Source: Xestospongia muta
Lineage: Eukaryota > Porifera > Demospongiae > Haplosclerida > Petrosiidae
Length of the DNA stretch: 64,000 nt
Assembly: GCA_963693285.1 (NCBI GenBank)
Contig: OY848931.1
Span: 2,110,644 to 2,174,643 of the forward strand
Reading direction: 5' to 3'
Part shown: one piece after another, positions 5,718 to 36,945 of the stretch
Layout: every line of letters begins with the position of its first letter
Position numbering within the stretch: position 1 is the first letter of the stretch
Position numbers and translations under genes: made by a program
The notes under the pieces: generated by a model
The model's input: the letters and a program-made list of their open reading frames with translations, nothing else
Told to the model about the DNA's origin: nothing
Databases searched by the model: none

Positions 5718-8700
5718 TTATGGCGTAGCAATTTGACATGTAACTTTACAGTCAAATTTACCACAATCACAGAAGGCATCTACACTTCCTTTGAACGAAA
5801 TGTTGTGTCCCAAATGGCAAGTTTGCATACATTGATAACAACAACCAGCTCTTGGATTAGTAAAGCAAGAGTGACAAAAGTAAAAAGGTTGCCTTAGATA
5901 TTGATTTCCAGTGAAGTAGTAGGTGCATACTTTGGCCTGGTGACGACTAATGCCACAGTGACAGATAAAATCTTCAGCATCATGATGAGGGACTAATTTA
6001 TGTTCAGAATGGCATTCATTAGCACATACTTCACAACAACCAATTCTTGATTCTTTACCCCAGCAGGACAGGCATTCATACCATTTCTGATTCCTGGGAG
6101 CACTTCCATATTGATCATAGGTACATTTGGGTCCGATCTTACAAGTTATGGCACAGCACTCTAAGCCACAGTCACAAAATGCATTTCTCATTCCACTGTC
6201 TTCTACATTGTGACCTCTGTGACAATTCTCAACACAGGCACTACAACATCCCTTCGTACTTTCAGTAAAACAGGTATGACATCGATAGAACCACTGGTTG
6301 ACATATTCTTTCTTTGTGGTAGTGTACGTACATACAGCATCAACACTGTACTTTGGTGTTACTTTGTGACTGTTGGCACCACAGTCACAGAAAAAGTCTC
6401 CTGATTCATGAGATACTAAGTTATGTCCTGAATGGCATTCTTCGGCACATACTACACAGCACCCATACCCTGATCCTTCATCCCAACAAGACAGGCATTC
6501 ATACCATTTCTGATTCCTGTGAGCACTTCCATATTGATCATAGGTGCATTTGGGTCCGATCTTACAAGGTGTGTCACAGTACTCTAGGCCACAGTCACAG
6601 AATGCATTTATTATCCCACTGTATTCCACATTGTGACCTTTGTGACAGTTCTCAATACAGGCACTGCAACACCCCTCGTTACTTTCAGAGAAACAGGTGT
6701 GACATCGATAAAATGGCTGGTTAATGTATCCTTTCTTTGTTGTAGTATAGGTACACACAGCATTAACACTATACTTTGGTGTTACTTTGTGACTGTTAGT
6801 ACCACAGTTGCAGACAAAATCTCCTGATTCATGAGTTACTAATTTATGTCCTGAATGGCACTCTTCAGCACATACTACACAGCACCCATACCCTGATCCT
6901 TCATCCCAACAAGACAGGCATTCATACCATTTCTGATTCCTGTGAGCACTTCCATATTGATCATAGGTGCATTTGGGTCCGATCTTACAAGGTGTGTCAC
7001 AGTACTCTAGGCCACAGTCACAGAATGCATTTATTATCCCACTGTATTCCACATTGTGACCTTTGTGACAGTTCTCAATACAGGCACTGCAACACCCCTC
7101 GTTACTTTCAGAGAAACAGGTGTGACATCGATAAAATGGCTGGTTAATGTATCCTTTCTTTGTTGTAGTATAGGTACACACAGCATTAACACTATACTTT
7201 GGTGTTACTTTGTGACTGTTAGTACCACAGTTGCAGACAAAATCTCCTGATTCATGAGTTACTAATTTATGTCCTGAATGGCACTCTTCAGCACATACTA
7301 CACAGCACCCATACCCTGATCCTTCATCCCAACAGGACAGGCATTCATACCATTTCTGATTCCTGGGAGCACTTCCATATTGATCATAGGTGCATTTGGG
7401 TCCGATCTTACAAGTTACGGCACAGCACTCTAGGCCACAGTCACAGAATGCATTTATTATCCCACTGTATTCTACATTGTGACCTTTGTGACAGTTCTCA
7501 ATACAGGCACTGCAACACCCCTCGTTACTTTCAGAGAAACAGGTGTGACATCGATAAAACAGCTGGTCAATGTATCCTTTCTTTGTTGTAGTATAGGTAC
7601 ATACAGCATTAACACTATACTTTGGTGTTAGTTTGTGACTGTTAGTACCACAGTTGCAGACAAAATCTCCTGATTCACGAGTTACTAACTTATGTCCTGA
7701 ATGGCATTCTTCAGCACAAACTACACAGCACCCATACCCTGATCCTTCATCCCAACAGGACAGGCATTCATACCATTTCTGATTCCTGGCAGTGCTTCCA
7801 TATTGATCATAGGTGCATTTGGACCCAAACATACAAGGTATGGCACAGTACATTAGGCCACAGTCACAGAATGCACTTGATATTCCACTGTATTCCACAT
7901 TGTGACCTTTGTGACATTTTTGTATGCATGCAGTACAACAATGTGTGTTTTTGCAGGTATGGCAATTGTAAATGTGCTGTTTAATAATATTGGTTTTTAT
8001 AGAACTATATGTACAGGTAGTACCACTTGTTGCCATAGCACTCAAGTGAGATGCTGAATGATTGTTCAAACCACAGTCACATGAAAACTCCTTTGCTTCA
8101 TTTAGTACTAGTTCATGTCCTGAGTGACATTCTTTAGCACAGAGTTTACAACAGCCAAAATCAGATGTATTTGGCCAGCATGTTTGACATGAATACCACT
8201 CTTGTAGCTTTAAGGTATTGCCATATTGGTCATAAGCGCATCGCTTTGTTTTGTGGTTATTTTCACCACAATCGCAGATGAAATCTGTGGAATCAAGAGG
8301 CACTAAACTATGTCCCAGGTGGCATTCATTAGCACATATTTCACAACAGCTAAATTTGGATGTCTCTTGCCTACATGTGAAACATTCAAATCCTCTCATT
8401 TTGGACATGCTAGATTGTTCATCATGTTCATCAAAAGAACATTTATGACCAATTTTACAGTTATTCTCACACTCTTTGAGACCACAGTCACAAAATCCAT
8501 TAAAAATACCACAATACAGTATGTTATGGCTAGTGTGACAGCTTCGAATGCAGGAGACACAGCAACTTTCAGTAGAACAATCAACACAACGATAGAATGG
8601 TTGCTTAACATGTGCTGTCTTCATTAAAGAATATGTACAAACTCCATTACAGGTCATTTTGTCTGTGTAAGGAAAGAATAATCATGTATAATGACATACT

Positions 8701-11700
8701 AAGATATTGTTCCAAAATTAGTAAATGATATACATGTACAATAAAACTCACCTCCTTTTGTGCCTCTTTTAATGATCTCAACTGACAATAATTCTAATTC
8801 TTTACTAAGTTGCTGCACAGAGATCTCACTTGAAGAATATCCACAAAGCACTTGTTGACTTAAAGATTTAAAATCAAAAATTTGAATCTCCCCTGTTTCA
8901 ACCTCTAATGCAACTTGATGCTCCCAAATCTTTTCTTGACATTTGTCTGGAGTTAAGTTTACATATTCTACAATGTTCTTGCTTGTGCATTTAATGAATA
9001 CTTTGAGAGAAGAGGCAGAGTGAAGCTTAGATTTGATTGAGCCAAGATTAAGTTGAAATTTCATTTTGTTTTCATACATTGATAAATGATGGTTATAGAC
9101 AGATATTGGTAAAGCAGGATCGCTAACATCAACAAGTTCAACCTGGTATTGATAATCCTTTCTTTCTTCTAAAATGACTTGGATAGTGTTATCTTCTTTT
9201 TGGTAGTTCATCTCCATTGCCAAGAACTCAATTTTAGTTTCTCTGCTAGGGCTAGAAATACAATTAGGACCCATAGCAGTTATCTGGACAATGTACTCTC
9301 TTCTGTTAAGACTTTTCATGTCATTTTCACTCAAAAAGTATACTGAAGGTAAATAATCAGTACACTTGACAATACTGTGAGATGGATAGCGTTTCTCAGC
9401 AAGTAAGGCTAAAAGATCTTTGTCATCAACAGTTATGATCTTTGTTAGAATTGGCACTTGGTTTGCTTCATCATAGAACTCAATCTTGTAGGCCTGTGCA
9501 TGTGGGACTTGCGTCCAGATTACGATGAGAGTTCCAACTTCCAATGAATAGAAGACATTCAATGCTTTTAGAGTTGGAAGTAGATTTATTTCATTGGAAA
9601 GTAGGGGATCACTATCCAGGGTGTTTTCATCACCTTTTGCAATGACCATGCTCTCAAGGCAGATAAGTTCTTCCACAAATTTTTTTCTTACTTGCTCAAG
9701 AGGAAATTTGTGGCATAAAACAACTTCTTCACCATCTCCACACAGCTGGTAATTTGTTAGATCAAGAGAATGTTCCATAAGATACACTGGAGTCTTCCCA
9801 TCTGGAGTGCATTTCAAAATTACAGACAACCCTGACTTAAATTTGTCAATAGATTTCAGTGGTAACGTCATTTTTGCTTCCAAGTTTTCATTAAGTAAAC
9901 ATGACAACTGTGAAAGGTGTTCTTGGTTGAATAATTGCATACATTCATGATACACACTACTAGTTCCTTCAGATGAAATGGAGAGAGCTCTTATTTGGTA
10001 TGGACTTTCATAGTCAGCTAGTGAATCAGGGAGTTTGAGAGAAAAGCTAATATTGTCATTATCAGGATGGGATAGTAATTGATGGTTCAAAACTCTTTTG
10101 GTTGTGTCTACTATTTCAACAAGGTATTCAGCAGCATTTTCAACTGTTTGAATCTCACCAAATATGCACCTTTTAAGACAATTGTTGTAAGTATGTAAAA
10201 TTACAGGAGGATGAAGATCTTGACAATGATTAATTTCTTTGAAGAACTCACAGTGAAGTATCTTGCCAAGAAGGGTAACTTCCGTTCTCACAAGTTCAGT
10301 ACCAGTACGTAAACGGAAACGACTCATTTCTTGTTCATCAGTTGGAATGATATCATTATTAAATTCAGGCTGGACAGTCATTCTAACACAGGCTTTAATG
10401 GAAACCTTAATAGAGATTGCCCTTGAAACTACTTTTGAGAAATTCTCATCTTTTATAACAAGTGGGTCATTACTAGCTATCCTCCTTATATATTTGAGCT
10501 GTAATTCATTTTCAAAAAAATTGCCTTTAGAAACTACAGTAGCAACAATGGTCACTATGTAATCAACTTTACCTTCTTCTTTCTCAGTGACTTCATCGTT
10601 CATTTTCCAACTTAATGAAATATTGTTGTTTGAGTCAAGTTTCATATCAAGTTCCTTTACAGACAATAGTTCAGATACTTCTTGCTGAGCTAGGCTGCTG
10701 ATTTCATCTATATGAACTATATCTCTCATCATTTGGTCTACTTCAGGAGTGACATCATCTCCATCACAAGCGGAGCACATGTCCTTTATAAACTGTTCTA
10801 TACCAATTACTGCAGCATATGGTCCAAACAACTCTGCAAATGGAGGTACTTTGTTTGAATGCTCAATTGGTTCACACTCCCATTTTCCACTCTCCTTATC
10901 AAAATATAGCTTCCCTCCAATAATGCTAGCTGCAATACCATGATCACTTTCAACTTTAATGCAATTAAAAATGCACCGAAAAAAGCTCCCGATAGCTTTC
11001 CCTGCTTTTACAACTCCTTTTGCCACCATTTTAGCATCTTCAATGACAGCTTTTCCAGCATCAACGACACCTCTTACAGCACTTTTAACAATATTTCCAG
11101 GAATTTTGATTAGTTCATATCTGACCACATTCCAAAGTGTTTCAAAAATTACAGCATAATTTTCTTTTGCAATTTTAAGAAGAAACTGTGACCAACTATC
11201 TGCCAGAAACCCTGTTGGAATTCGTATGCGAATAGGAATTTCCAATGCTTCAATTTCAAAACCTAAAAACATTACTCCAAGTACAATAGTGAAGTTACAT
11301 ATCATCAGATATCTGTCTGGATCTGGATTCTCATCAGTACTAAATCTTACTTTAACTGTAGGAGTTGGCCTTAGACTTTTGACAAGCCTATATAAGAATA
11401 TAGCATATTTTTTAATACAACCCAGGAATTCACCAAACAATTCAAAAGGATCAAGTCCAAGTTCTAACTTAACAACTCGAAAGTCCTTTTTTCTCCATCT
11501 TACAGTAATTGATGGCTGGAAAAATTTTACAAGGCAAAGTTTTGGAGAACCTTCGAAGTAAGTTCGTCCACGGCGTCCACGTTCTTTCTTCTTGATCATT
11601 GACAATGTGCCCTGCAAAAATGGCCATCCAAATAGCTCTATACCGACTTCAAATCTGGTACATCCTTTCTCGTGGACTATTGCTGGTCCTTTTTTAAAAT

Positions 11701-14700
11701 CAAGATCTGTGAACTTCACAAAAGCAACTTTTATTTTTTCACATGTATATCCTTTTATCCACTCTAGCTTACGCTTCTTACTAAAATGAGCATGGACTGA
11801 GAACACTTTGTCTAAGGAGAAAATAGAAGCTGTCACGTTAAGGTCATATCCCTCTTTATACTTTTCCCCTGAATCAGTGAAACTTTTAGAAGCAAAATAG
11901 AGTGTGCTCTCCTTCTTTAAAACAAGATCAAGTGATTCCAGATCTTCTGATTCTATGTTAACAGCTTTTAGAAGACTACATACAGATATTTCTTCAGATA
12001 ATGTTATTTTCAAAAGTGTTAGTTTTGTAGCTTCAAAATGTAGCAGACAATTAAAGCAGATGTTTGCTTTTAAGTCAAGCAGTCCTGTAATTTTGACTTC
12101 TGGTTTCTTTTTTTTCTTAAAAATTCCTTCAACTTTAAGGTTTCTTACAGTTCCTTTGATCTTGTTTTTCTTCAATCCATGTATAGAATCACTTTCAAGT
12201 CCTTTAGCTGTGAGAGTTGCTCCATCATTATGTATTTCAAGTTCAGCATCAACACAAAGTCTGCCACTGCCTACTGCTATAGAAACCTTTCCTTTTGCTG
12301 ACAAGTGCTGCTTCCCTTTTTCCCATGTATAGAGGAACATAAGATTGTTTACTTTAATGTCATCATTTTCTGTCAACAACCATTCTGACAGATGGCCACA
12401 GAATATCAACTTTGGCTTTGCATTCTTCAAGTTTCCTTTGCTGATACTAACACCAATTTGTATCTCATTCAGAGATGAAGTGTCAGTGATTTCTTTCAAT
12501 CCATGGAAAAAGCTTTTTTCAGAGAAGGAAAGAGCTCCTGTTAGAATTACACCTGAACCTTCTATAGATGATGTTTCTAGTAAATCTAAATGAGAAGATG
12601 AATATAAATTGAGAGAAGGTAGAGATGTCTTGTCCTTATGACTTTCTAAAGTCTTTTGAAAGATGTCAGCAATTTTATCATTCAAGGTCTTAAGTGAACA
12701 CTCAGGGAGAGAATAAACAAGAAGTTCTGGTGACTTAATTTGTATTAAGTTGTCAATTTCAGTGAACATGCCAGTATCAGATAGGCTTGAGAACTTGAAG
12801 TTCTTAACTTGAACGGATAAGACAAAGTTTGGATCTTTGTTTGTTCCCCTTTCAATGAACATACTTCCTGATCCCAAGCCCTCAATACTACCATCTATCA
12901 ACATACAAGGTTTTGACATGTTGAAAGCTACTTTGGCTGATGTTAGGGATAACGTACGTATGTTGGTAGGTGCAAGATCAGTAAACTCAGTAGTACTTTT
13001 ATTGCCAAATTTTACAGCACTGGAAAGAGGTAGATCAGATTCGAGTGTTCCAATGATAACACTTTCTTCTGAAATGTACATTTCACCCTTTATCTGAAAG
13101 CTATTGAAGGAAACTAAACAACTTAGGTAAAAGGACTGACTATCTTTTTCCCATATGTACTGGGCAACTGCTTTGTTGATGTGGATGTCTTTAGTAAGAG
13201 AAAAGTCAGCAACATCACCATATAATTCAAGTTTTGGTGTTTTGTCGTTTTTCTCTTTAGTAACACTAATTCCAAATTTCATGTCAATCAATGGAGTCCC
13301 TGTTACCTCTTGTAATTTACTAAGAGGACTATGCTTCATAATATCGACGTGACAGAATAAGAATAAGCCAAATGAATCTGAAGGTAGTGAAACTTCGGGG
13401 TCTGCAAAAGTATTTAAGGATGGAGGGTTTAATAAATCCGGGAAAGATTTTGAGATATTTTTGATAACACCCTTAGCAGATGAATTCTGCAAGCAATACA
13501 TTAACATTTCGGCAGATTTTATTTTCAGTAAGCTGTCTACTTGTGTAAGAGTGTCACTTAGACTTGAAAATTGAAATCCTTTATCAAGTGACAGAGACAA
13601 TGCAAACCCTTTACTATTCAGGTCAATGAACAAACCACCAGTTCCTAAATTAGTAACACAACCTTTCACAAATACAGTAGACTTTGTTGTGTTCATCAGA
13701 ATTGAAGCAGACTCAAATGAAAATTCATGTTTATCAAACAAATCGAATGCATCTTTATCAAGAAGAGCATCAGTTATAGTAGTCAAATTAACATGTGAAG
13801 TGATATGACCTTTAAAGAAGGAATCACACTCACTATCAGATAGCAACATTGCCCCTTCAGCAGTCACTCCAACTTCTTCAAAGGACACACTAAAATAGAG
13901 ATTTAAGGAAGCATTTGACTCTTTTTTGTTATAGTTAAACATAGCCTTCTCAACAGTAATTGAGCCAAGGGACAACTGTGACACTTCACCACAGATTTCC
14001 ATGGTCATCTCTTTTTCATCAGTATTTAGCCACATACCAACATCAATGGTTTCGCTAGACTCAGTAACATCAGACAGTCGTTTGAGGAGGCCACTTTCAG
14101 CTTTCACTAGGACTTTACCAATAAATAGGAGGCCAGAACATTCCTTTGAAACATTAGTTGTCATATTTTTTGGTACCTTAAAATCAGAGAAGGCCTTCAA
14201 AGACACAACTTGCTTGTCTTCACTATCAGAATGAGACTTGTGAGCTTCTATAGCACTAGTGAACAAAGTGGTCAGTAATTTGTCCATGTGGTTGAAGGTT
14301 TTGTTTGGAAGAGAGAATGCTAGAAGATGAGCGTTCTTGACATCTAAAAGCTTGTCGATTTCTGAGAGGTTATCAGAGAGGTGTTCAAACTTAAAATTGT
14401 CCTCAAGTTGAACTGAAAGAGCATATCCTGCCTTCCTTTTGTCTCCTCTCTCATAGAACAGACTTCCCGATCCTAGATTGGAGATTTTCCCTTCTACTAA
14501 CAAACATTCTTTTGTGATGTTAAATGCCATTGAGACTTCCAAGGCTGCCCCAAAGGACATGCTGTGTTCAGGAGTGGGTTTTACCAGCTCCTGATGTGAA
14601 ATAGTGCCAACAATGCTAGAGAGATTAAGATCTGATGAAAGCTTCCCAATGACAATGGAGTCTTGGTCTTTGTCCTCACACAGTGACATTGTTCCTTCTC

Positions 14701-17700
14701 CAGTAACTCCAATCTCTTTGAAGGACACACTAAAGTAGAGATTTAACGAAGTACCTGACTCTTTTTTGCTGTAGTTGAATGTAGCCTTTTCAACAGTAAT
14801 TGAACCAAGTGTCAGCTTTGAGACTTCACCACAGATTTCGATGGTCATCTTATTTTTATCAGTATTTAGCCACATACCAACATCAATGGTTTCGCTAGAC
14901 TCAGTAACGTCAGACAGTCGTTTGAGGAGGCCACTTTCAGCTTTCACTAGGACTTTACCAATAAATAGGAGGCCAGAACATTCCTTTGAAACATCAGTTG
15001 TCATATTTTCTGGTGCCTTAAAATCAGAGAAAGCGTTTAAAGAAACAACTTGCTTGTCTTCACTATCAGAATGAGACTTGTGAGCTTCTATAGCATTTGT
15101 GAACAGAGTGGTCAGTAATTCGTCGATGTGGTTGAAGGTTTTGTTTGGAAGAGAGAATGCTAGAAGACGAGCATACTTGATATCTAAAAGCTTGTCGATT
15201 TCTGAGAGGTTATCAGAGAGGTGTTTAAACTTAAAATTGTCCTCAAGTTGAACTGAAAGAGCATATCCTGCCTTGCTTTTGTCTCCTCTCTCATAGAACA
15301 GACTTCCCGATCCTAGATTGGAGATTTTGCCTTCCACTAACAAACATTCTTTTGTGATGTTAAATGCCATTGAGACTTCCAAGGCTGCCCCAAAAGACAT
15401 GCTGTGTTCAGGAGTGGGTTTTACCAGCTCCTGATGTGAAATAGTGCCAACAATGCTAGAGAGATTAAGATCTGATGAAAGCTTCCCAATGACAATGGAG
15501 TCTTGGTCTTTGTCCTCACACAGTGACATTGTTCCTTCTCCGGTAACTCCAATTTCTCTGAAGGACACACTAAAGTAGAGATTTAACAAAGTAACTGACT
15601 CTTTTTTGCTGTAATTAAATGTAGCCTTTTCAACAGTAATTGAGCCAAGTGTCAGCTTCGAGACTTTACCACAGATTTCGATGGTCATCTCTTTTTCATC
15701 AGTATTTAGCCACATACCAACATCAATGGTTTCGCTAGACTCAGTAACGTCAGACAGTCGTTTGAGGAGGCCACTTTCAGCTTTCACTAGAACTTTACCA
15801 ATAAATAGGAGGCCAGAACATTCCTTAGAAACATCAGTTGTCATATTTTCTGGTACCTTAAAATCAGAGAAAGCGTTTAAAGAAACAACTTGCTTGTCTT
15901 CACTATCAGAATGAGACTTGTGAGCATCTATAGCATTTGTGAACAGAGTGGTCAGTAATTCGTCGATGTGGTTGAAGGTTTTGTTTGGAAGAGAGAATGC
16001 TAGAAGACGAGCATACTTGATATCTAAAAGCTTGTCGATTTCTGAGAGGTTATCAGAGAGGTGTTTAAACTTAAAATTGTCCTCAAGTTGAACTGAAAGA
16101 GCATATCCTGCCTTGCTTTTGTCTCCTCTCTCATAGAACAGACTTCCCGATCCTAGATTGGAGATTTTGCCTTCCACTAACAAACATTCTTTTGTGATGT
16201 TAAATGCCATTGAGACTTCCAAGGCTGCCCCAAAGGACATGCTGTGTTCAGGAGTGGGTTTTACCAGCTCCTGATGTGAAATAGTGCCAACAATGCTAGA
16301 GAGATTAAGATCTGATGAAAGCTTCCCAATGACAATGGAGTCTTGGTCTTTGTCCTCACACAGTGACATTGTTCCTTCTCCAGTAACTCCAATCTCTTTG
16401 AAGGACACACTAAAGTAGAGATTTAACGAAGTACCTGACTCTTTTTTGCTGTAGTTGAATGTAGCCTTTTCAACAGTAATTGAGCCAAGTGTCAGCTTTG
16501 AGACTTCACCACAGATTTCGATGGTCATCTCTTTTTCATCAGTATTTAGCCACATACCAACATCAATGGTTTCGCTAGACTCAGTAATGTCAGACAGTCG
16601 TTTGAGGAGGCCACTTTCAGCTTTCACTAGGACTTTACCAATAAATAGCAGGCCAGAACATTCCTTTGAAACATCAGTTGTCATATTTTCTGGTGCCTTA
16701 AAATCAGAGAAAGCGTTTAAAGAAACAACTTGCTTGTCTTCACTATCAGAATGAGACTTGTGAGCTTCTATAGCATTTGTGAACAGAGTGGTCAGTAATT
16801 CGTCGATGTGGTTGAAGGTTTTGTATGGAAGAGAGAATGCTAGAAGACGAGCATACTTGATATCTAAAAGCTTGTCGATTTCTGAGAGGTTATGAGAGAG
16901 GTGTTCAAACTTAAAATTGTCCTCAAGTTGAACTGAAAGAGCATATCCTGCCTTGCTTTTGTCTCCTCTCTCATAGAACAGACTTCCCGATCCTAGATTG
17001 GAGATTTTGCCTTCCACTAACAAGCATTCTTTTGTGATGTTAAATGCCATTGAGACTTCCAAAGCTGCCCCAAAGGACATGCTGTGTTCAGGTGTGGGTT
17101 TTACCAGCTCCTGATGTGAAATAGTGCCAACAATGCTAGAGAGATTAAGATCTGATGAAAGCTTCCCAATGACAATGGAGTCTTGGTCTTTGTCCTCACA
17201 CAGTGACATTGTTCCTTCTCCAGTAACTCCAATCTCTTTGAAGGACACACTAAAGTATAGATTTAACGAAGTACCTGACTCTTTTTTGCTGTAGTTGAAT
17301 GTAGCCTTTTCAACAGTAATTGAGCCAAGTGTCAGCTTTGAGACTTCACCACAGATTTCGATGGTCATCTCTTTTTCATCAGTATTTAGCCACATACCAA
17401 GATCAATGGTTTCGCTAGACTCAGTAACATCAGACAGTCGTTTGAAGAGGCCACTTTCAGCTTTCACTAGGACTTTACCAATAAATAGGAGGCCAGAACA
17501 TTCCTTAGAAACATCAGTTGTCATATTTTCTGGTACCTCATAATCAGAGAAGGCCTTTAAAGAAACAACTTGCTTGTCTTCACTATCAGAATGAGACTTG
17601 TGAGCTTCTATAGCACTTGTGAACAGAGTGGTCAGTAATTCGTCGATGTGGTTGAAGGTTTTGTTTGGAAGAGAGAATGCTAGAAGACGAGCATACTTGA

Positions 17701-23700: not shown

Positions 23701-26700
23701 GACTTCCCGATCCTAGATTGGAGATTTTGCCTTCCACTAACAAACATTCTTTTGTGATGTTAAATGCCATTGAGACTTCCAAAGCTGCCCCAAAGGACAT
23801 GCTGTGTTCAGGAGTGGGATTTACCAGCTCCTGATGTGAAATAGTGCCAACAATGCTAGAGAGATTAAGATCTGATGAAAGCTTCCCAATGACAATGGAG
23901 TCTTGGTCTTTGTCCTCACACAGTGACATTGTTCCTTCTCCGGTAACTCCAATCTCTTCGAAGGACACACTAAAGTAGAGATTTAACGAAGTAACTGACT
24001 CTTTTTTGCTGTAGTTGAATGTAGCCTTTTCAACAGTAATTGAGCCAAGTGTCAGCTTCGAGACTTTACCACAGATTTCGATGGTCATCTCTTTTTCATC
24101 AGTATTTAGCCACATACCAACATCAATTGTGTTGCTAGACTCAGTAACGTCTGACAGTCGTTTGAGGAGGCCATTTTCAGCTTTCACTAGGACTTTACCA
24201 ATAAATAGGAGGCCAGAACATTCCTTTGAAACATCAGTTGTCATATTTTCTGGTACCTCATAATCAGAGAAGGCGTTTAAAGAAACAACTTGCTTGTCTT
24301 CACTATCAGAATGAGACTTATGAGCTTCTATAGCATTTGTGAACAGAGTGGTCAGTAATTCGTCAATGTGGTTGAAGGTTTTGTTTGGAAGAGAGAATGC
24401 TAGAAGATGAGCGTTCTCGATATCTATAAGCTTGTCGATTTCTGAGAGGTTATGAGAGAGGTGTTCAAACTTAAAATTGTCCTCAAGTTGAACTGAAAGA
24501 GCATATCCTGCCTTGCTTTTGTCTCCTCTCTCATAGAACAGACTTCCCGATCCTAGATTGGAGATTTTGCCTTCCACTAACAAACATTCTTTTGTGATGT
24601 TAAATGCCATTGAGACTTCCGAGGCTGCCCCAAAGGACATGCTGTGTTCAGGAGTGGGTTTTACCAGCTCCTGATGTGAAATAGTGCCAACAATGCTAGA
24701 GAGATTAAGATCTGATGAAAGCTTCCCAATGACGATGGAGTCTTGGTCTTTGTCCTCACACAGTGACATTGTTCCTTCTCCGGTAACTCCAATTTCTTTG
24801 AAGGACACACTAAAGTAGAGATTTAACGAAGTACCTGACTCTTTTTTGCTGTAGTTGAATGTAGCCTTTTCAACAGTAATTGAGCCAAGTGTCAGCTTTG
24901 AGACTTCACCACAGATTTCGATGGTCATCTTATTTTCATCAATATTTAGCCACATACCAACATCAATTGTGTTGCTAGACTCAGTAACGTCTGACAGTCG
25001 TTTGAGGAGGCCATTTTCAGCTTTCACTAGGACTTTACCAATAAATAGGAGGCCAGAACATTCCTTTGAAACATCAGTTGTCATATTTTCTGGTACCTCA
25101 TAATCAGAGAAGGCGTTTAAAGAAACAACTTGCTTGTCTTCACTATCAGAATGAGACTTATGAGCTTCTATAGCATTTGTGAACAGAGTGGTCAGTAATT
25201 CGTCAATGTGGTTGAAGGTTTTGTTTGGAAGAGAGAATGCTAGAAGATGAGCGTTCTCGATATCTATAAGCTTGTCGATTTCTGAGAGGTTATGAGAGAG
25301 GTGTTCAAACTTAAAATTGTCCTCAAGTTGAACTGAAAGAGCATATCCTGCCTTGCTTTTGTCTCCTCTCTCATAGAACAGACTTCCCGATCCTAGATTG
25401 GAGATTTTGCCTTCCACTAACAAACATTCTTTTGTGATGTTAAATGCCATTGAGACTTCCAAGGCTGCCCCAAAGGACATGCTGTGTTCAGGAGTGGGTT
25501 TTACCAGCTCCTGATGTGAAATAGTGCCAACAATGCTAGAGAGATTAAGATCTGATGAAAGCTTCCCAATGACAATGGAGTCTTGGTCTTTGTCCTCACA
25601 CAGTGACATTGTTCCTTCTCCGGTAACTCCAATTTCTTTGAAGGACACACTAAAGTAGAGATTTAACGAAGTACCTGACTCTTTTTTGCTGTAGTTGAAT
25701 GTAGCCTTTTCAACAGTAATTGAGCCAAGTGTCAGCTTTGAGACTTCACCACAGATTTCGATGGTCATCTTATTTTCATCAATATTTAGCCACATACCAA
25801 CATCAATGGTTTCGCTAGACTCAGTAACGTCAGACAGTCGTTTGAGGACGCCATTTTCAGCTTTCACTAGGACTTTACCAATAAATAGGAGGCCAGAACA
25901 TTCCTTAGAAACATCAGTTGTCATATTTTCTGGTACCTTAAAATCAGAGAAAGCATTTAAAGAAACAACTTGCTTGTCTTCACTATCAGAATGAGACTTG
26001 TGAGCTTCTATAGCATTTGTGAACAGAGTGGTCAGTAATTTGTCGATGTGGTTAAAAGTTTTGCTTGGAAGAGAGAATGCTAGAAGACGAGCATACTTGA
26101 TATCTAAAAGCTTGTCGATTTCCGAGAGTTTATGAGAGAGGTGTTCAAACTTAAAATTGTCCTCAAGTTGAACTGAAAGAGCATATCCTGCCTTGCTTTT
26201 GTCTCCTCTCTCATAGAACAGACTTCCTGATCCTAGATTGGAGATTTTGCCTTCTACTAACAAACATTCTTTTGTGATGTTAAATGCCATTGAGACTTCC
26301 AAGGCTGCCCCAAAGGACATGCTGTGTTCAGGAGTGGGTTTTACCAGCTTCTGATGTGAAATAGTGCCAACAATGCTAGAGAGATTAAGATCTGATGAAA
26401 GCTTCCCAATGACGATGGAGTCTTGGTCTTTGTCCTCACACAGTGACATTGTTCCTTCTCCGGTAACTCCAATTTCTTTGAAGGACACACTAAAGTAGAG
26501 ATTTAACGAAGTACCTGACTCTTTTTTGCTGTAGTTGAATGTAGCCTTTTCAACAGTAATTGAGCCAAGTGTCAGCTTTGAGACTTCACCACAGATTTCG
26601 ATGGTCATCTTATTTTCATCAATATTTAGCCACATACCAACATCAATTGTGTTGCTAGACTCAGTAACGTCTGACAGTCGTTTGAGGAGGCCATTTTCAG

Positions 26701-29700
26701 CTTTCACTAGGACTTTACCAATAAATAGGAGGCCAGAACATTCCTTTGAAACATCAGTTGTCATATTTTCTGGTACCTCATAATCAGAGAAGGCGTTTAA
26801 AGAAACAACTTGCTTGTCTTCACTATCAGAATGAGACTTATGAGCTTCTATAGCATTTGTGAACAGAGTGGTCAGTAATTCGTCAATGTGGTTGAAGGTT
26901 TTGTTTGGAAGAGAGAATGCTAGAAGATGAGCGTTCTCGATATCTATAAGCTTGTCGATTTCTGAGAGGTTATGAGAGAGGTGTTCAAACTTAAAATTGT
27001 CCTCAAGTTGAACTGAAAGAGCATATCCTGCCTTGCTTTTGTCTCCTCTCTCATAGAACAGACTTCCCGATCCTAGATTGGAGATTTTGCCTTCCACTAA
27101 CAAACATTCTTTTGTGATGTTAAATGCCATTGAGACTTCCGAGGCTGCCCCAAAGGACATGCTGTGTTCAGGAGTGGGTTTTACCAGCTCCTGATGTGAA
27201 ATAGTGCCAACAATGCTAGAGAGATTAAGATCTGATGAAAGCTTCCCAATGACGATGGAGTCTTGGTCTTTGTCCTCACACAGTGACATTGTTCCTTCTC
27301 CGGTAACTCCAATTTCTTTGAAGGACACACTAAAGTAGAGATTTAACGAAGTACCTGACTCTTTTTTGCTGTAGTTGAATGTAGCCTTTTCAACAGTAAT
27401 TGAGCCAAGTGTCAGCTTTGAGACTTCACCACAGATTTCGATGGTCATCTTATTTTCATCAATATTTAGCCACATACCAACATCAATTGTGTTGCTAGAC
27501 TCAGTAACGTCTGACAGTCGTTTGAGGAGGCCATTTTCAGCTTTCACTAGGACTTTACCAATAAATAGGAGGCCAGAACATTCCTTTGAAACATCAGTTG
27601 TCATATTTTCTGGTACCTCATAATCAGAGAAGGCGTTTAAAGAAACAACTTGCTTGTCTTCACTATCAGAATGAGACTTATGAGCTTCTATAGCATTTGT
27701 GAACAGAGTGGTCAGTAATTCGTCAATGTGGTTGAAGGTTTTGTTTGGAAGAGAGAATGCTAGAAGATGAGCGTTCTCGATATCTATAAGCTTGTCGATT
27801 TCTGAGAGGTTATGAGAGAGGTGTTCAAACTTAAAATTGTCCTCAAGTTGAACTGAAAGAGCATATCCTGCCTTGCTTTTGTCTCCTCTCTCATAGAACA
27901 GACTTCCCGATCCTAGATTGGAGATTTTGCCTTCCACTAACAAACATTCTTTTGTGATGTTAAATGCCATTGAGACTTCCAAGGCTGCCCCAAAGGACAT
28001 GCTGTGTTCAGGAGTGGGTTTTACCAGCTCCTGATGTGAAATAGTGCCAACAATGCTAGAGAGATTAAGATCTGATGAAAGCTTCCCAATGACAATGGAG
28101 TCTTGGTCTTTGTCCTCACACAGTGACATTGTTCCTTCTCCGGTAACTCCAATTTCTTTGAAGGACACACTAAAGTAGAGATTTAACGAAGTACCTGACT
28201 CTTTTTTGCTGTAGTTGAATGTAGCCTTTTCAACAGTAATTGAGCCAAGTGTCAGCTTTGAGACTTCACCACAGATTTCGATGGTCATCTTATTTTCATC
28301 AATATTTAGCCACATACCAACATCAATGGTTTCGCTAGACTCAGTAACGTCAGACAGTCGTTTGAGGAGGCCATTTTCAGCTTTCACTAGGACTTTACCA
28401 ATAAATAGGAGGCCAGAACATTCCTTTGAAACATCAGTTGTCATATTTTCTGGTATCTCATAATCAGAGAAGGCGTTTAAAGAAACAACTTGCTTGTCTT
28501 CACTATCAGAATGAGACTTATGAGCTTCTATAGCATTTGTGAACAGAGTGGTCAGTAATTCGTCAATGTGGTTGAAGGTTTTGTTTGGAAGAGAGAATGC
28601 TAGAAGATGAGCGTTCTCGATATCTATAAGCTTGTCGATTTCTGAGAGGTTATGAGAGAGGTGTTCAAACTTAAAATTGTCCTCAAGTTGAACTGAAAGA
28701 GCATATCCTGCCTTGCTTTTGTCTCCTCTCTCATAGAACAGACTTCCCAATCCTAGATTGGAGATTTTGCCTTCTACTAACAAACATTCTTTTGTGATGT
28801 TAAATGCCATTGAGACTTCCAAGGCTGCCCCAAAGGACATGCTGTGTTCAGGAGTGGGTTTTACCAGCTCCTGATGTGAAATAGTGCCAACAATGCTAGA
28901 GAGATTAAGATCTGATGAAAGCTTCCCAATGACAATGGAGTCTTGGTCTTTGTCCTCACACAGTGACATTGTTCCTTCTCCGGTAACTCCAATCTCTTTG
29001 AAGGACACACTAAAGTAGAGATTTAACGAAGTACCTGACTCTTTTTTGCTGTAGTTGAATGTAGCCTTTTCAACAGTAATTGAGCCAAGTGTCAGCTTTG
29101 AGACTTCACCACAGATTTCGATGGTCATCTCTTTTTCATCAGTATTTAGCCACATACCAACATCAATTGTGTTGCTAGACTCAGTAACGTCAGACAGTCG
29201 TTTGAGGAGGCCACTTTCAGCTTTCACTAGGACTTTACCAATAAAGAGGAGGCCAGAACATTCCTTAGAAACATCAGTTGTCATATTTTCTGGTACCTTA
29301 AAATCAGAGAAAGCCTTTAAAGAAACAACTTGCTTGTCTTCACTATCAGAATGAGACTTGTGAGCTTCTATAGCATTTGTGAACAGAGTGGTCAGTAATT
29401 CGTCAATGTGGTTGAAGGTTTTGTTTGGAAGAGAGAATGCTAGAAGACGAGCATACTTGATATCCAAAAGCTTGTCGATTTCTGAGAGGTTATGAGAGAG
29501 GTGTTCAAACTTAAAATTGTCCTCAAGTTGAACTGAAAGAGCATATCCTGCCTTGCTTTTGTCTCCTCTCTCATAGAACAGACTTCCCGATCCTAGATTG
29601 GAGATTTTGCCTTCCACTAACAAACATTCTTTTGTGATGTTAAATGCCATTGAGACTTCCAAGGCTGCCCCAAAGGACATGTTGTGTTCAGGAGTGGGTT

Positions 29701-32700
29701 TTACCAGCTCCTGATGTGAAATAGTGCCAACAATGCTAGAGAGATTAAGATCTGATGAAAGCTTCCCAATGACAATGGAGTCTTGGTCTTTGTCCTCACA
29801 CAGTGACATTGTTCCTTCTCCGGTAACTCCAATTTCTTTGAAGGACACACTAAAGTAGAGATTTAACGAAGTACCTGACTCTTTTTTGCTGTAGTTGAAT
29901 GTAGCCTTTTCAACAGTAATTGAGCCAAGTGTCAGCTTTGAGACTTCACCACAGATTTCGATGGTCATCTCTTTTTCATCAGTATTTAGCCACATACCAA
30001 CATCAATTGTGTTGCTAGACTCAGTAACGTCAGACAGCCGTTTGAGGAGGCCACTTTCAGCTTTCACTAGTACTTTACCAATAAAGAGGAGGCCAGAACA
30101 TTCCTTAGAAACATCAGTTGTCATATTTTCTGGTACCTTAAAATCAGAGAAAGCCTTTAAAGAAACAACTTGCTTGTCTTCACTATCAGAATGAGACTTG
30201 TGAGCTTCTATAGCATTTGTGAACAGAGTGGTCAGTAATTCGTCAATGTGGTTGAAGGTTTTGTTTGGAAGAGAGAATGCTAGAAGACGAGCATACTTGA
30301 TATCTAAAAGCTTGTCGATTTCTGAGAGGTTATGAGAGAGGTGTTCAAACTTAAAATTGTCCTCAAGTTGAACTGAAAGAGCATATCCTGCCTTGCTTTT
30401 GTCTCCTCTCTCATAGAACAGACTTCCCGATCCTAGATTGGAGATTTTGCCTTCCACTAACAAACATTCTTTTGTGATGTTAAATGCCATTGAGACTTCC
30501 AAGGCTGCCCCAAAGGACATGTTGTGTTCAGGAGTGGGTTTTACCAGCTCCTGATGTGAAATAGTGCCAACAATGCTAGAGAGATTAAGATCTGATGAAA
30601 GCTTCCCTATGATAATGCAGTCAACGTGTCTATTGTCAGACAATAACATAGTTCCTGTTGCAGTTATTTTTTTTTCAGGATATGAAATTTTGCAGTGCAA
30701 GATAGGAAATGAAGTGTTTATTTTTATAAAGACATTGTCTATTAATATTTTGCTAATTAATCTTTTTGTGGTTGGCACTCTAAACTGTACATTACCATCA
30801 TTAAAAAATTGGAGGGACTGATAAGAGATGGGTGTACTCAAACAATATATATCTGTGTTGTTCTCTTTGTATTTCATTAGAGAAAACATGGTTTTGATGT
30901 TTTCTTTCGTTATGTGAGACAAATATTGTACTTCCAAATGTAAAGCACTGTTATAAGTTACCTTAATTCTATTGCTTTTCCATTCCTTGATCAGTTCATG
31001 TGTCTGCTCCTGGATTTCATCCAGTATAGCTACTTGGAACAATTCTGTAAACTTAATTAGTTGTTTACCAAAATTAAAAATGCTGTTCAGCGTATCAAGT
31101 AATGTCACATTACTACTCATGCAGACAACAGAATGAAGGAAATACTTTTCATTCCGGAAATGCATCCTTAATTTTTCTGACAACCTTTCTTTACCATAAG
31201 AGCTGGTTCCAATGAATATGATATATTGTGAATCTGCAAACAAAATAAATACCCAATTCAAAGATTCTTACATGTTATTTTAGAAGAACTCTTAGTATTG
31301 AAGTACATATGTAGAGGCTTGGAAGATATCATTGATACATAATACATACTGTCTGTCATTCATGTATATTATACATAGTGTCTGATATGATCCTGTTCTA
31401 TTTTGGTATGAATTTTCCCAGAGGGAGTGTTTAATTTCTATCCTACACACTTGGATACATTATTTAGAACTAATACAATCTTTCTCTTTTTGCCTGAACT
31501 AACTAATTGATTTATTTATTTTTATGTTATGCAATCAAGAAAAAGAACTCTGTTGATGTTGTAAAATCAGATGGCTCCTTGAGCTTCAGAAAATTCTTGC
31601 TTCAATATATTATGTGAATGTTAACATCATATGGATGCGTTTTAGATTAGCATATGCTCTTTGATGTCCTGTGCTTAATGCAACAATTTTTATAAAGGCA
31701 GTGGTTATTTGACTGTGATTGGCAACTTACAAGTTTTGGCAATTCTGATTAGCCTTGTACCCAGGCTTTTGGCAAAAGGAAGAAATGCCTGGTAACTACT
31801 GCTTACATATGCAGTAATTATTGTAGTTATACAATATAATGACGTCATGACTACAACGTTTTTAAGTAAATGACAAATCAATGGGTTGAGTTTCTATTGA
31901 TAACATTTTATTTTCTATATGAGTTTAAGCATGTCTTCAAACAGTCAAGTTTGTCATTTGTGTAGAGATTCAGTGCTTGTAAACAGAGCGATACACTTCT
32001 TTGGTACAAATGGGACCCAAAATGAATGGGCTTTGTGAAACATGCACTCATTCTAAAACCAGTTGGCAACCATAGGAACGCATCTTTCCATCATACATAG
32101 CTTTAATGGATAAGAGCTGCTCTGTTTAAAAAGATATATCTAGTCTTTCAACCTACTTGAAGCAAGGACATTGGAAGCAGATAAAAAGAGAGTTAACCTC
32201 ATCAACATTAATGATAATTTTTATGATCATGATATTAAGTACACACGTGTACAACTGATCAAAGGTGAATAATATGGCTGCAATCTTGTCAGCACAAGTA
32301 CTAGTAGAAGCATGTTGAGCCATAACCCAAATTTTTTAAAACTTGACTACAGTTTTGCAAGAAAGATCTTAATGAAGAACAACTTGGATATGAAAGCTGC
32401 TTAGACTGGTACCACTTTAATTGTGTTGGTTTAAAAGGGCTCCTAAAGCCAAGATTTGGTTTTGCAGATACTGCTATGGAAACATGTAGTATTAACATTA
32501 GTATTTATCTGTTTAATGGGCCCTCGTTATAATGAAGTACATTGTGAAGAACCACACCTGTCAGTTATATCACATGTATAGCCAATCAGAATTAAGTGGC
32601 AGTTAAATAGCCAAAATTCATAAGTTGCCAGTCACAGTCAAATAACCACTGCCTTTTATAAAAGCATATACTGTATTTCCTCAATTAAACGTCTACTTTA

Positions 32701-34989
32701 AATAAACACCTGCCTTGATGAGACACTGGGAACAAACACTTTCCTTGAGTAAATAAAGATCTAACTCAAATAATGCTGAAACTAAAGTTCCAGTTAGGAT
32801 GTATGTACAATAGGATAGAATCATGACCCCTTAGTGTCATTAAAAACCTTGAAACTTAAGAAAATAGTTCTAGCATATAGCCATATACTTAAGCTTATCA
32901 GAGAAGATTTCACTTGATGTAGCTGGTTCTTGTCATATATCATGCTTTGAAAGTGTATCAAACATCAATGCATCTGTGTTTTGTAAGTGCTTTTACTATT
33001 ATACCCTAAAAATCTTTAAAAAGGTAAAGAAAATTTACAATATTATTATGAAGTGAGTCTAAAGGTTAAATGGTGACAGAGAAGAAGAGCAGATAACATT
33101 TTCTATTTTTCACTGGGAAAGTGTTGATAAATAAATACCTATTTTGTTTTAACACTGGTCAAAAATGATCTGAGTTAAATAAATGCTAGGGCATTTAATT
33201 GAGGAAATACAATATTAGTGTCGAAGTATATCATTCCTCTACAGCAGCCAATGAATTTAATTAATTTATTGCAAGCAGTACAATGTTGGGTGTTACTCTA
33301 CTATACTATACTCAAAGCAATGTACTCATCACTTCTTTCTTTGTATTGACACGTGGAAAAGTTAGCTTTAGGCTAAAACAATTCTCTCACACAAATGGAT
33401 GGAAAAATTCAAAATTAGATACAGTGCCATTAGCATTTGTCCCTTACACAAATAACTAAAGCACAGAGGTATGATTGGGCATGAGACACACTACGTCAAC
33501 TACTTCACCATGCCTCTCATGCATTAATTCCACAATGCACTTGAATTGTACTTCATCTATTTACATATGACCATTACCTTTATCCACATATTTCATTTCA
33601 AGAAGTATACCATCATTATCAGAAGCATCCATCAAATGAAAAAAAATCTAAAATTATAATCAACAATATATACATTAAAGGACATGTATGATTACCTCTT
33701 CTGGCTGTGGAAATGTGTCTTCAGTAATGTCATGCACTTGTTTATTTGAATGCTCAGCATAAATGAATAACAACACTAGTACTAGTATTGGTGAACAGAC
33801 CAGGAGACCATACCTATACAAGCATTATGTAAAACACTGATACATGTGATCATTTATATATAGGTAGGGACAGATGTTTTGCGTAACACTGTATAACAAA
33901 CTCTTACAAAAGAGTCTGACTAGCCTATAATAATACCCAATTCAAAGTAAAGCCTAGCAAAATAATGTGACACAAATCATGGTGAGTCTGTAGCAAGTAA
34001 TATTGTTATACTAAATAAATGACTGGTGAGCTTTACGTAGTAGCGGAGAAAATGGTAATTTTTAAGTTTCTAACGTAAACATCATGAAACTAAGTAAAAT
34101 TAATATAAAATGGATTCCTTTCATAGAGCTAAATGAGTGACGAGTTTTATGTAATATTGTCAATGACCTATTACGTTTAACATACATATACCATATGAAG
34201 TTAACATATTTAGATATAGCTGTATCTTATCCTTAAGATCAGTTTACATAAACAGACACACTTATCCTCCCACTAATACACACTATGGAATTTATAGTCA
34301 GTTGAATGCCTAGCCCTTTTCCTCCACCACTGGCCTAATTGATTTTAGATAAGCACAGACACTTTAAAGTCATCATTGGGACTATAATATTACAAACCTT
34401 CCCTCTTCCTCTACCACTTGCCATCAACATGTTGTTACATGTAGTACCAGAAAACTCCCCTTTTCCTCCGTATTGGTTTACTTGTGATGTGGTTTTACTA
34501 GATACATATAATCTATACACTGCATAACTGATCAGTGCTTTTGAATACCTGTGGTTCTGGGTTCCCAATTATCACATTCCTAAGTTTGATGTCGACCACA
34601 CCACTTATATATATATATATATATATATATTAGGAATACATGAATATGCTGGACCTCACGTAGTGATAGGCTAGATTTAAAAACAAATGCGACTTTAATT
34701 TGATCACTTAGTCTGTCCAAGATGCAAGAAAAGGTAAACTTTAGCACTTGTAGGATAATTTCTGTATACCTAGGTTCTAACTTAGTCTTTGATCTTATTC
34801 ACCTTCAAACTGCTCTAGACGTCTTATATACATCTTTTAATTGTTTTAAATAAGTCTGCGCAGAAATATTCCACCATATATACCATGTATATAATTAAAA
34901 TAAGTTACAACTTACCAACTCCAAAACTGGATGTTGAGCAGCACGATGGCAAAGGCCATCATAAATGTAAGAGTTGAACCTTTCGCCAT
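5718..34989 (-). CDS. Giant 8,562-residue protein: TM/signal, ~22 long repeats, Fn3-like, 14 UBR boxes
   Basis: Not a family I recognise as a whole. Exons on the minus strand: 34989-34916, 33813-33696, 33647-33578, 31233-8752 (22,482 nt) and 8662-5718. All introns are GT..AG, and phases match at every junction (2, 0, 1, 1). The sum of 25,689 nt is 8,563 codons including the stop. The start ATG (34989) has an in-frame TAA three codons upstream. Order of parts by residue: 1-45 two hydrophobic stretches (FMMAFAIVLLNI; LLVCSPILVLVLLFIYA), so a signal anchor or hairpin; 46-296 unique, partly helical; about 297-5895 twenty near-identical 280-residue repeats; about 5896-6430 two diverged repeats; then a unique region with amphipathic Ala/Val/Lys helices; about 6958-7421 Fn3-like; 7584-8562 UBR-box array. 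No HECT, RING, kinase or protease domain was seen. Expression and splicing are unproven, but four independent phase matches argue strongly for one transcript. Confidence 0.85.
5730..8645 (-). other. Array of 14 UBR-box-like zinc modules (C-terminus of the giant protein)
   Basis: UBR boxes are about 70-residue folds with bound zinc ions that recognise N-degrons in UBR-family E3 ligases. Here 14 modules of 60-75 residues follow one another, each showing a C..C..C..C spacing, a CHxGH pair and a terminal CDCG or CNCG. Two subtypes alternate: type 1 (starts VCTYTTTKKGY, contains FYRCHTC, ends AFCDCGL; closest to the UBR4-type box as I remember it) and type 2 (starts KCTYDQYGS, contains WYECLSCW, ends DFVCNCGTNSHK). 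A type 1 + type 2 pair is 141 residues, encoded by a 423-bp unit. Equivalent positions recur at 6061, 6484, 6907, 7330 and 7753, and two neighbouring copies are almost identical. The first three and last two modules are more diverged. Known UBR proteins carry one box, so an array without ligase domains is unusual. N-degron binding here is inference. Confidence 0.85.
8663..8751 (-). other. 89-bp intron joining the giant repeat exon to the UBR-box exon
   Basis: The donor reads GGAG|GTGAGTTT at 8752/8751, a near-consensus site. The acceptor reads TTCCTTACACAG|ACAAAATG at 8663/8662 with a pyrimidine tract. The upstream exon ends after the first base of a codon and the downstream exon supplies two bases (G+AC = Asp), followed by AAA and then the ATG at 8657, all in frame with the UBR array. 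Without splicing, the upstream frame stops 17 codons later at 8699. Confidence 0.9.
9230..10640 (-). other. Fibronectin-III-like modules in the giant protein
   Basis: Three stretches look like Fn3 beta sandwiches by their strand pattern: one around ISLSWKMND...VDYIVTIVATV (about 10,560-10,640), one around AEYLVEIVDTTKR...YQIRALSISSEGTSS (about 9,940-10,200), and one around GTLIVIWTQVPHAQAYKIEF...YIVQITAMGPNCISSPS (about 9,240-9,550). The Trp in strand B and the Tyr-x-Ile/Val-x-Ile strands are the visible hallmarks. The calls rest on pattern only; a profile search would settle them. Confidence 0.5.
12200..13807 (-). repeat. Two diverged copies of the 280-residue repeat
   Basis: At protein level this section repeats landmarks of the main array: TKSTVFVKGCVTNLGTGGLF and SKPCMLIDGSIEGLGSGSMF match ITKECLLVEGKISNLGSGSL, and SLSDTLTQVDSLLKIKSAEM matches LSHNLSEIDKLLDIKYARLL. 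DNA identity to the main array is low and the spacing is not exactly 840 bp, so these are old units that escaped the homogenisation seen upstream. Confidence 0.8.
13808..30607 (-). repeat. Tandem array of 20 coding repeats, 840 bp each
   Basis: The junction marker GCTTCCC (plus strand) recurs at 14641, 15481, 16321 and so on to 30601: nineteen steps of exactly 840 bp, with no indel and no stop codon. Each unit encodes 280 residues beginning GKLSSDLNLSSIVGTIS and ending near CEDKDQDSIVI. The pattern alternates beta-rich segments (TIEICGEVSKLTLGSITVEK, SLNLYFSVSFKEIGVTGEG) with a helical segment (NLSEIDKLLDIKYARLLAFS). Each consensus unit has about six N-x-S/T sequons (NLS, NIT, NLS, NKT, NMT, NYS) and four cysteines. 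Units differ by only a few per cent; the unit nearest 14 kb is the most diverged. Confidence 0.97.
16455..20063 (-). repeat. Higher-order duplication of three repeat units (2,520 bp offset)
   Basis: Variant bases that mark individual 840-bp units recur together 2,520 bp apart. The string ggtgtgggtt occurs at 17091 and 19611, gatcaatggt at 17401 and 19921, and the Glu/Gly-rich variant cctcaccttt at 17791 and 20311. Sampled lines between the two copies show only about one difference. A second pattern with a 1,680-bp offset links the units at 20,580-21,700 and 22,260-23,400. This is the signature of recent unequal exchange or gene conversion. Confidence 0.85.
31689..32663. mobile_element. Non-autonomous inverted-repeat element (~975 bp)
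   Basis: The left end (31689-31754) and right end (32579-32663) are inverted copies sharing AAGGCAGTGGTTATTTGACT and, further in, TGGCAACTTA and TTCTGATTGGC/AGCC. The interior has a weak Cys-containing reading (VCHLCRDSVLVNRAIHFFG, about 31945-32005) followed by stops, so any coding content is decayed. No transposase was recognised and target-site duplications are unclear. Confidence 0.7.
32673..33210. mobile_element. MITE with GTATTTCCTCAATTAAA terminal inverted repeats
   Basis: The left terminus GTATTTCCTCAATTAAACG (about 32673) is matched by the reverse complement at about 33192-33210. Subterminal AAATAAA-type motifs are also inverted. It is about 540 bp long with no ORF, and it abuts the preceding element within 10 bp. 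The transposon superfamily was not assigned. Confidence 0.75.
34062..34481. repeat. Copy of the giant gene's 5' flank inside its intron 1
   Basis: This segment matches 34,996-35,423 over about 420 bp with few differences (for example AACATACATATACCATATGA and TGAATGCCTAGCCCTTTTCC), in direct orientation at an offset of about 934 bp. Exon 1 (34916-34989) lies between the two copies. Intron 1 also has an (AT)n run at 34605-34631. Confidence 0.85.
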
Positions 34990-36339: not shown

Positions 36340-36945
36340 TTAAAATTTTCCTTTAACATAGTCAACAATGACTGGAATAGCCAAGGTAAATGCAGAGACC
36401 ATTGTAACACCTTTCACTATCTGTTCACTACCAACTGGAATATCTTTAGGGGCGCCCAATCGTTTCGCCAATAGTTGAACATACTTTTGACAGTTGTTTT
36501 CAAATAAAGTGTAAGCTCCCATATCAAAAAGAATATCATACGAATTGTCAAAAATCTCATGCATTGACTTATTTATATCCCCAATGTAATATGCCTTCCA
36601 TTCTTTCTTCCAATCAAAAGGATTCATGATATTAAAGGTCAATGTGACTTTGAACTTATTGCTCACTGCAGATTCATCTTTCTTATGTGTTAGATGAACA
36701 ATAATGCCACTTATATTATCAATATGACTCTGAACAAACACGATAACGTAATGCTCAAATACGGTTTTGTTTAGTACGTATGTATTCCAGGTTATAGTGT
36801 TATCCATTTTAGGGAGTTCGAATTTTTTGGCATTTTCTTTATGAAATTTGTCCACTCTCTCCCAAAAGTCTGCCTTCTGTTCATCATAGGGTTTTGCATA
36901 CGTTCCAGGATTTGTCTGATCGGCTATTTTTGCTGTTTGAGCCAT
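36340..36945 (-). CDS. LRAT/NlpC-P60-like (permuted papain-fold) protein, 201 aa
   Basis: Intact single-exon ORF. Residues 59-72 (NKTVFEHYVIVFVQ) hold a His in a beta strand and residues 149-157 (ENNCQKYVQ) hold a Cys. His first and an NCxxxV-type Cys motif later is the order seen in circularly permuted papain folds (LRAT, H-rev107/PLAAT and related acyltransferases or hydrolases). His65 and Cys152 are the proposed catalytic pair. A C-terminal hydrophobic stretch (about 177-196, VTMVSAFTLAIPVIV) resembles the membrane tail of H-rev107-type proteins, which suggests lipid or acyl chemistry at a membrane. Length is normal for the group. The fold assignment is from motif and order only. The stop codon is followed by an (AT)n tract, and the gene lies upstream of and in the same orientation as the giant gene. 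Its 5' end (36,946-37,110) is locally GC-richer. Confidence 0.6.
   Translation of the reverse strand: MAQTAKIADQTNPGTYAKPYDEQKADFWERVDKFHKENAKKFELPKMDNTITWNTYVLNKTVFEHYVIVFVQSHIDNISGIIVHLTHKKDESAVSNKFKVTLTFNIMNPFDWKKEWKAYYIGDINKSMHEIFDNSYDILFDMGAYTLFENNCQKYVQLLAKRLGAPKDIPVGSEQIVKGVTMVSAFTLAIPVIVDYVKGKF

Follow-up and report, generated by a model that had tools for sequence, protein, structure and literature searches.

A 64,000-nucleotide stretch of the genome of the sponge Xestospongia muta (contig OY848931.1, positions 2,110,644 to 2,174,643; the window) carries on its minus strand a giant gene whose predicted product joins a hydrophobic N-terminus, 20 near-identical 280-residue repeats and a C-terminal array of 14 UBR boxes. 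The exon structure, the repeat array and the UBR array are confirmed as real; the boxes belong to the UBR family by sequence and predicted fold, fall into two types in a fixed order, and the same design is kept in a second, intact copy of the gene. Repeat and UBR array most likely form one gene encoding a protein of ∼8,560 residues. An earlier note on this DNA had interpreted the product as a membrane-anchored or secreted giant with potential degron-binding modules and no ligase domain, an interpretation that is supported in part. Our own tentative reading is a membrane-anchored, ligase-free giant scaffold that would bind protein N-termini multivalently.

Gene structure and the intact paralog

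The five minus-strand exons splice to 25,689 nt, or 8,563 codons, with the sole stop at the end. Exon 1 (34916..34989) contains the ATG and the first hydrophobic stretch (residues 1–24), and a TAA lies in frame 9 nt upstream of the ATG. Exon 2 (33696..33813, 118 nt) encodes the remainder of the hydrophobic N-terminus and is followed by exon 3 (33578..33647). Exon 4 (8752..31233, 22,482 nt) harbors the N-terminal domain, the 280-residue array, the diverged units and a unique C-terminal region, and exon 5 (5718..8662) the UBR array and the stop codon. The introns measure 1102, 48, 2344 and 89 nt, with donors GTAAGT, GTAATC, GTAATG and GTGAGT and AG at all acceptors, and the cumulative phases at the exon junctions are 2, 0, 1 and 1. 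The earlier claim of five GT..AG exons with these phases, an upstream stop and 8,563 codons was thus reproduced exactly. A mechanical six-frame list of open reading frames (ORFs) gives a 7,522-residue frame at 8699–31267 and a 987-residue frame at 5718–8681. Reading on through the exon 4 donor adds 17 codons before a stop (8699–8751); retention of intron 4 (8663..8751) would yield a protein without the UBR array.

A search of the genome (158.0 Mb in 28 contigs) revealed a second copy of the giant gene on the same contig, inverted and 1.07 Mb away (C15:3218039-3239895). Its predicted protein of 6,467 residues is intact and is encoded by five matching exons, of which exon 2 is one codon longer (121 nt). 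The paralog introns are 912, 48, 1404 and 89 nt long and have the same phases, and the ATG, the in-frame upstream TAA, the exon 1 donor and both splice sites of the exon 4/5 junction are kept. Protein identity between the two copies ranges from 0.816 to 0.946 per region. The agreement of intron positions and phases argues that the gene model did not arise by chance and, taken with the matching exons and with the ATG, upstream TAA and exon 4/5 splice sites common to both copies, strongly supports the one-gene claim of the earlier note.

A giant ORF paired with a UBR-array ORF was also found on three database contigs, the pairing being deduced from contigs of equal size: 335,303 (P0023/P0001), 437,947 (P0025/P0003) and 1,538,468 (P0024 with P0002 and P0005). 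In the unique region, the window copy is matched at 99.0% identity by P0023 and the paralog at 98.6% by P0025; P0024 shares 90.5% identity with the window copy and 88.9% with the paralog. By these identities, the P0023/P0001 and P0025/P0003 contigs are apparently other assemblies of the window gene and its paralog. Units more than 60% identical to unit 4 number 20 in the window copy, 16 in P0023, 18 in P0024 and 12 each in the paralog and P0025, and UBR boxes counted by the CxCG motif number 14 in the window copy, 16 in the paralog, 20 in P0001, 22 in P0002, 16 in P0003 and 14 in P0005. The window gene and its 99% identical counterpart therefore differ in both modules (20 versus 16 units, 14 versus 20 boxes), which may reflect polymorphism or assembly error; real differences are somewhat likelier because the paralog counts (12 units, 16 boxes) agree across assemblies.

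The two copies were compared over window 5418-35289 and G000:C15:3217739-3240195. In introns 1 and 3 and in the flanks, 25–49% of aligned positions differ (poorly aligned stretches included) and local matches are 69–79% identical, whereas coding dS is 0.056–0.140; intron 4 differs at 9 of 89 positions and intron 2 at 1 of 48. The much closer match of the exons, compared with introns 1 and 3 and the flanking DNA, is most simply read as gene conversion between the inverted copies.

UBR boxes and the orphan repeat

The UBR box is a zinc-binding module that in other proteins recognizes protein N-termini, and families of UBR E3 ligases are well known. The 14 boxes of the window copy (5721..8639, minus strand) are arranged in the type order ABBABABABABABA. 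All 14 are recovered as separate stretches of PF02207 (276.3 bits against a cut-off of 25.2; whole-protein E 7.4e-84), and the predicted model of boxes 8–11 (mean pLDDT 62.2, box cores mostly 61–82) has UBR6, UBR4 and UBR5 as its best Foldseek and VIA rows, one of them at E <= 0.001. Profile and model together place the boxes in the UBR family and its predicted fold, and the count of 20 repeats and 14 boxes given in the earlier note was borne out. The order ABBABA... recurs in all six giant-linked arrays.

Two residues of the amine pocket, Phe148 and Asp150, are described in an excerpt of PMC10687169 as binding the ligand N-terminus. Equivalents of both occur in 8 of the 14 boxes, and of the Asp in 10. 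The pair is complete in every A-type box (7/7) but in only one of the seven B-type boxes, three of which have the Asp, so that the term 'potential degron-binding modules' used in the earlier note suits the A-type boxes better than the B-type boxes. Across the six giant-linked arrays, A-type boxes with both residues number 7/7, 7/8, 10/10, 11/11, 7/8 and 7/7, the paralog accounting for one of the 7/8 counts. The equivalent of Asp153, which selects Arg in UBR1/UBR2, is replaced by L, E, T, A, I or K in all 14 boxes, and a classical Arg/N-degron reading is therefore not supported. UBR4 likewise makes no use of its Asp153 equivalent (excerpt of PMC10687169), and boxes 6, 8, 10, 12 and 14, read by eye, have Tyr at the position aligned with UBR4 Phe1671. 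UBR4-like selectivity would be the better guess.

The repeat array (13826..30625, residues 291–5890) comprises 20 units in tandem, every one exactly 280 residues long, with pairwise identities of 0.871–1.000 (mean 0.945) in protein and 0.914–1.000 in DNA. It is followed by two diverged units (12206..13825, residues 5891–6430, boundaries approximate), which, measured in the paralog, share 26.6% and 32.1% identity with an array unit, and by a unique region of no assigned family (8753..12205, residues 6431–7581). Within this genome the unit matched at the two giant-gene loci only; among long database proteins it has three relatives, all kin of the giant gene, and a search of PDB sequences gave no meaningful match. 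For residues 5833–7581, 7,981 word-sharing candidates of ∼960–3,060 residues were scored for distant homology and none reached E <= 1. The 280-residue unit thus appears to be an orphan family, with relatives found only within the giant gene family.

Several assignments within the repeat were discarded. Profile comparison of the two halves of a unit showed no similarity (probability 0.1–0.2), which speaks against an origin from homologous half-repeats. PTSIIA_gutA, DcpS, Dala_Dala_lig_C and Translat_reg passed the whole-protein Pfam cut-off over residues 89–1832, but in 12 rows no stretch passed alone, and these four matches are best explained by scores adding up across near-identical repeats. 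The NCBIfam rows fell far under their cut-offs, except for one that came closer, at 22.3 versus 30 bits.

The N-terminus is hydrophobic over residues 4–41, with two 19-residue segments above 1.6 (Kyte–Doolittle means 1.62 and 2.03) in the window copy and one in the paralog. This lends weak support to the suggestion that the protein is membrane-anchored or secreted. Between the N-terminus and the array lies a unique stretch (30626..31231, residues 89–290) that matches the genome twice, in the two copies of the giant gene. By eye it contains a degenerate P-loop-like motif (GTSSYGKE ... AILDE); a Torsin/AAA identity was rejected, as residues 89–298 had no match among PDB sequences at E up to 10 and a sole Pfam match at chance level (E 0.25).

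The earlier statement that no ligase domain is visible held up in the domain scans. Pfam detected no RING, hemiRING, HECT or F-box in exon 5, residues 89–1832 or residues 5833–7581, with residues 1–88 outside the scan and residues 1833–5832 corresponding to units 6–20, the same repeat as in the scanned portions. NCBIfam found no ligase module either, although a strongly diverged one could escape.

Proposed function and competing readings

In the scaffold reading, the hydrophobic N-terminus would anchor the protein in a membrane, as its hydropathy suggests. The 20 or more 280-residue units may build a long arm that lengthens or shortens in steps of one unit, a proposal based on their repetition, and the pocket residues suggest that the C-terminal UBR4-class array captures proteins through exposed N-termini. 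A-type boxes would be the main readers and B-type boxes altered readers or spacers, and many weak sites per chain could add up to strong multivalent capture. A tethered receptor or adaptor is proposed rather than an E3 enzyme because no ligase domain was found. The portability of the module, seen in UBR-array relatives with astacin or kinase domains, counts in favor of this reading. A wider version, in which a membrane-tethered, ligase-free N-terminus receptor alternates UBR4-like readers with boxes of an altered pocket and varies its reach (12–20 units) and valency (14–22 boxes) by whole modules among gene copies and assemblies, and in which UBR arrays are a general targeting module outside ligases, is doubtful on present evidence.

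A number of observations weigh against the scaffold reading. FBXO11, whose match to the boxes is on a par with that of UBR4, is to our knowledge not established as a reader of N-degrons. The pocket contrast between A and B boxes is weaker in relatives: both residues are present in 4 of 8 B-type boxes of the paralog, and the Asp in 10 of 11 B-type boxes of P0002, 6 of 8 of the paralog and 5 of 7 of P0005. Since the B-type boxes of relatives often keep pocket residues, their role as spacers may be wrong, and some A-type boxes of astacin relatives lack the Phe or the Asp. The arm is a guess because the AlphaFold2 model of units 20–22, beta-rich with short helices, is of low confidence (mean pLDDT 52.5, pTM 0.36). 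Between the copies, dN/dS (NG86) is 0.876 for the N-terminal 87 residues, the putative anchor included. The other five of the six regions compared give 0.435, 0.465, 0.479, 0.341 and 0.500, a sign of constraint that counts in favor of the reading; as gene conversion probably lowers dS, these ratios are a rough guide only and dS is no clock.

The protein could instead be an extracellular or luminal structural giant, with a signal or anchor at its N-terminus, an arm of glycosylated repeats serving adhesion or the matrix, and UBR boxes that act as rigid zinc knots for binding partners other than N-degrons; we consider this rather unlikely. Sequons exceed shuffled sequence in both array units tested (6 versus 3.2 and 7 versus 2.8; sd 1.5), and UBR arrays co-occur with astacins, termed extracellular in an excerpt of PMC9848320. 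In diverged unit 22, however, sequons show no such excess (2 versus 3.3), and the UBR part has fewer than shuffled sequence (3 versus 8.0; sd 2.6). Inspection by eye reveals no obvious signal peptide in the astacin-UBR proteins P0006, P0007 and P0008, and all seven A-type boxes retain the amine-binding residues.

A lineage-specific bridge-like lipid carrier, with a Tweek- or Hobbit-like membrane segment, a beta-sheet arm forming a hydrophobic groove and a UBR docking tail, is improbable. In an excerpt of PMC7613979, Tweek (∼5,000 residues) and Hobbit start with ER transmembrane helices. The beta-rich repeat model is compatible with such an arm, and a strand-type amphipathic signal was positive but small in the four units tested (z 1.1–1.7; 1.1–1.8 with residues 6431–6700 included), the non-repeat parts giving values similar to those of the repeat units. 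The top Foldseek row of the repeat model was ApoB-100 at E 1.9e-3, which is not significant, all Foldseek and VIA matches of this model lying within background. No sequence link to Tweek or Hobbit was found, and RBG/Chorein_N gave no Pfam match at E up to 1 or 10, although Pfam models can miss diverged RBG domains.

Very improbable, too, is a pair of adjacent genes, one for a repeat giant that stops at 8699 and the other for a UBR-array protein whose start is the exon 5 Met. Each ORF is open in its own right, a stop lies inside intron 4, the tail past the exon 4 donor is closely alike in P0023, P0024 and P0025, and database proteins P0001–P0004 begin at the exon 5 Met. ATTAAA motifs lie close to the end of exon 4, but A(A/T)TAAA motifs also occur 3' of the stop codon and are indecisive between one gene and two. 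The gap from putative stop to start is only ∼41 bases, so that the end of one gene and the start of the next would have to fit there or inside the flanking exons. The paralog moreover keeps the intron 4 donor and acceptor in matching phase, and the adjacency of giant and UBR array is repeated on the three database contigs. We give almost no credence to a relic or selfish coding satellite, in which unequal exchange and gene conversion would have multiplied the repeats of a non-functional protein: unit number does differ among copies and assemblies and the exons match much more closely than do introns 1 and 3 and the flanks, but 8,562 and 6,467 codons are free of stops and frameshifts, dN/dS is 0.34–0.50 in five of six regions, and mean dN among array units is 0.026 against a dS of 0.063 (over 188 of 190 pairs; the remaining two were identical or not computable).

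Neighboring sequences and known systems

Upstream of the giant gene, a 209-residue ORF (36340-36969, minus strand) gave weak PPPDE/LRAT-like Pfam matches under the cut-off. Fourteen of the 17 genome matches to this ORF are clustered at G000:C1:24479214-24586169, and two short fragments, one with a stop, adjoin the paralog; the duplicated segment therefore probably included the ORF. About eight tandem units of 61–62 bp, ∼73% matching, occupy window 53464-53965. Elsewhere, G000:C11:4506853-4521119 contains dense Peptidase_C1 (PF00112) exon matches. Among the 14 active-site motif rows listed, drawn from 25 of the PF00112 loci that matched, there was no silicatein-type site. A further UBR exon, at G000:C1:3269161-3269884 (minus strand; locus L041), lies downstream of coiled-coil-like ORFs and encodes three boxes whose types were read by eye as A, B, A. 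One UBR box searched against phage records had no match.

If real, the giant is an unusually large protein made of near-identical units. We know of no UBR array in Tweek/BLTP1 or Hobbit. In their size, N-terminal membrane segment and beta-rich repeats (PMC7613979), these proteins would resemble the giant with its putative anchor and its units modeled as beta-rich; in an excerpt of PMC7613979, length variation of Tweek comes entirely from disordered loops, whereas the giant's units are near-identical and vary in number.

The earlier note knew of no described protein with this architecture. A giant UBR-array protein was likewise not found among the open-licence PMC literature matches listed, but the combination of UBR boxes with non-ligase domains is not unique. 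Such proteins are already in print, ZF-UBR being named among astacin-associated domains in an excerpt of PMC9848320. In the astacin-UBR proteins P0006–P0010 and P0012, A and B boxes mostly alternate (BABABA in 4 of 6, otherwise BABAABA and BBABA) and are 39–47% (P0006–P0010) or 31% (P0012) identical to the giant's array. These proteins are short (660–796 residues) and have an astacin domain where the giant gene has its repeat. The kinase-UBR protein P0011, with which P0015 and P0022 were grouped, has three boxes in the order ABA and, like the giant, no ligase among its listed Pfam domains; it differs in its length of 550 residues and its protein kinase domain. The giant's array exceeds the box number of the astacin and kinase relatives counted, and the set as a whole suggests that UBR boxes may act as a portable multivalent binding module apart from ubiquitin ligases.

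The boxes themselves resemble those of UBR4 (8j9q/8j9r), FBXO11/UBR6 (7yrb) and UBR5 (8p82). Compared with these proteins, the giant has no E3, HECT or F-box part that could be found, its 14 boxes in a single protein are of two types, and its array is fused to an apparently orphan family of 280-residue repeats.
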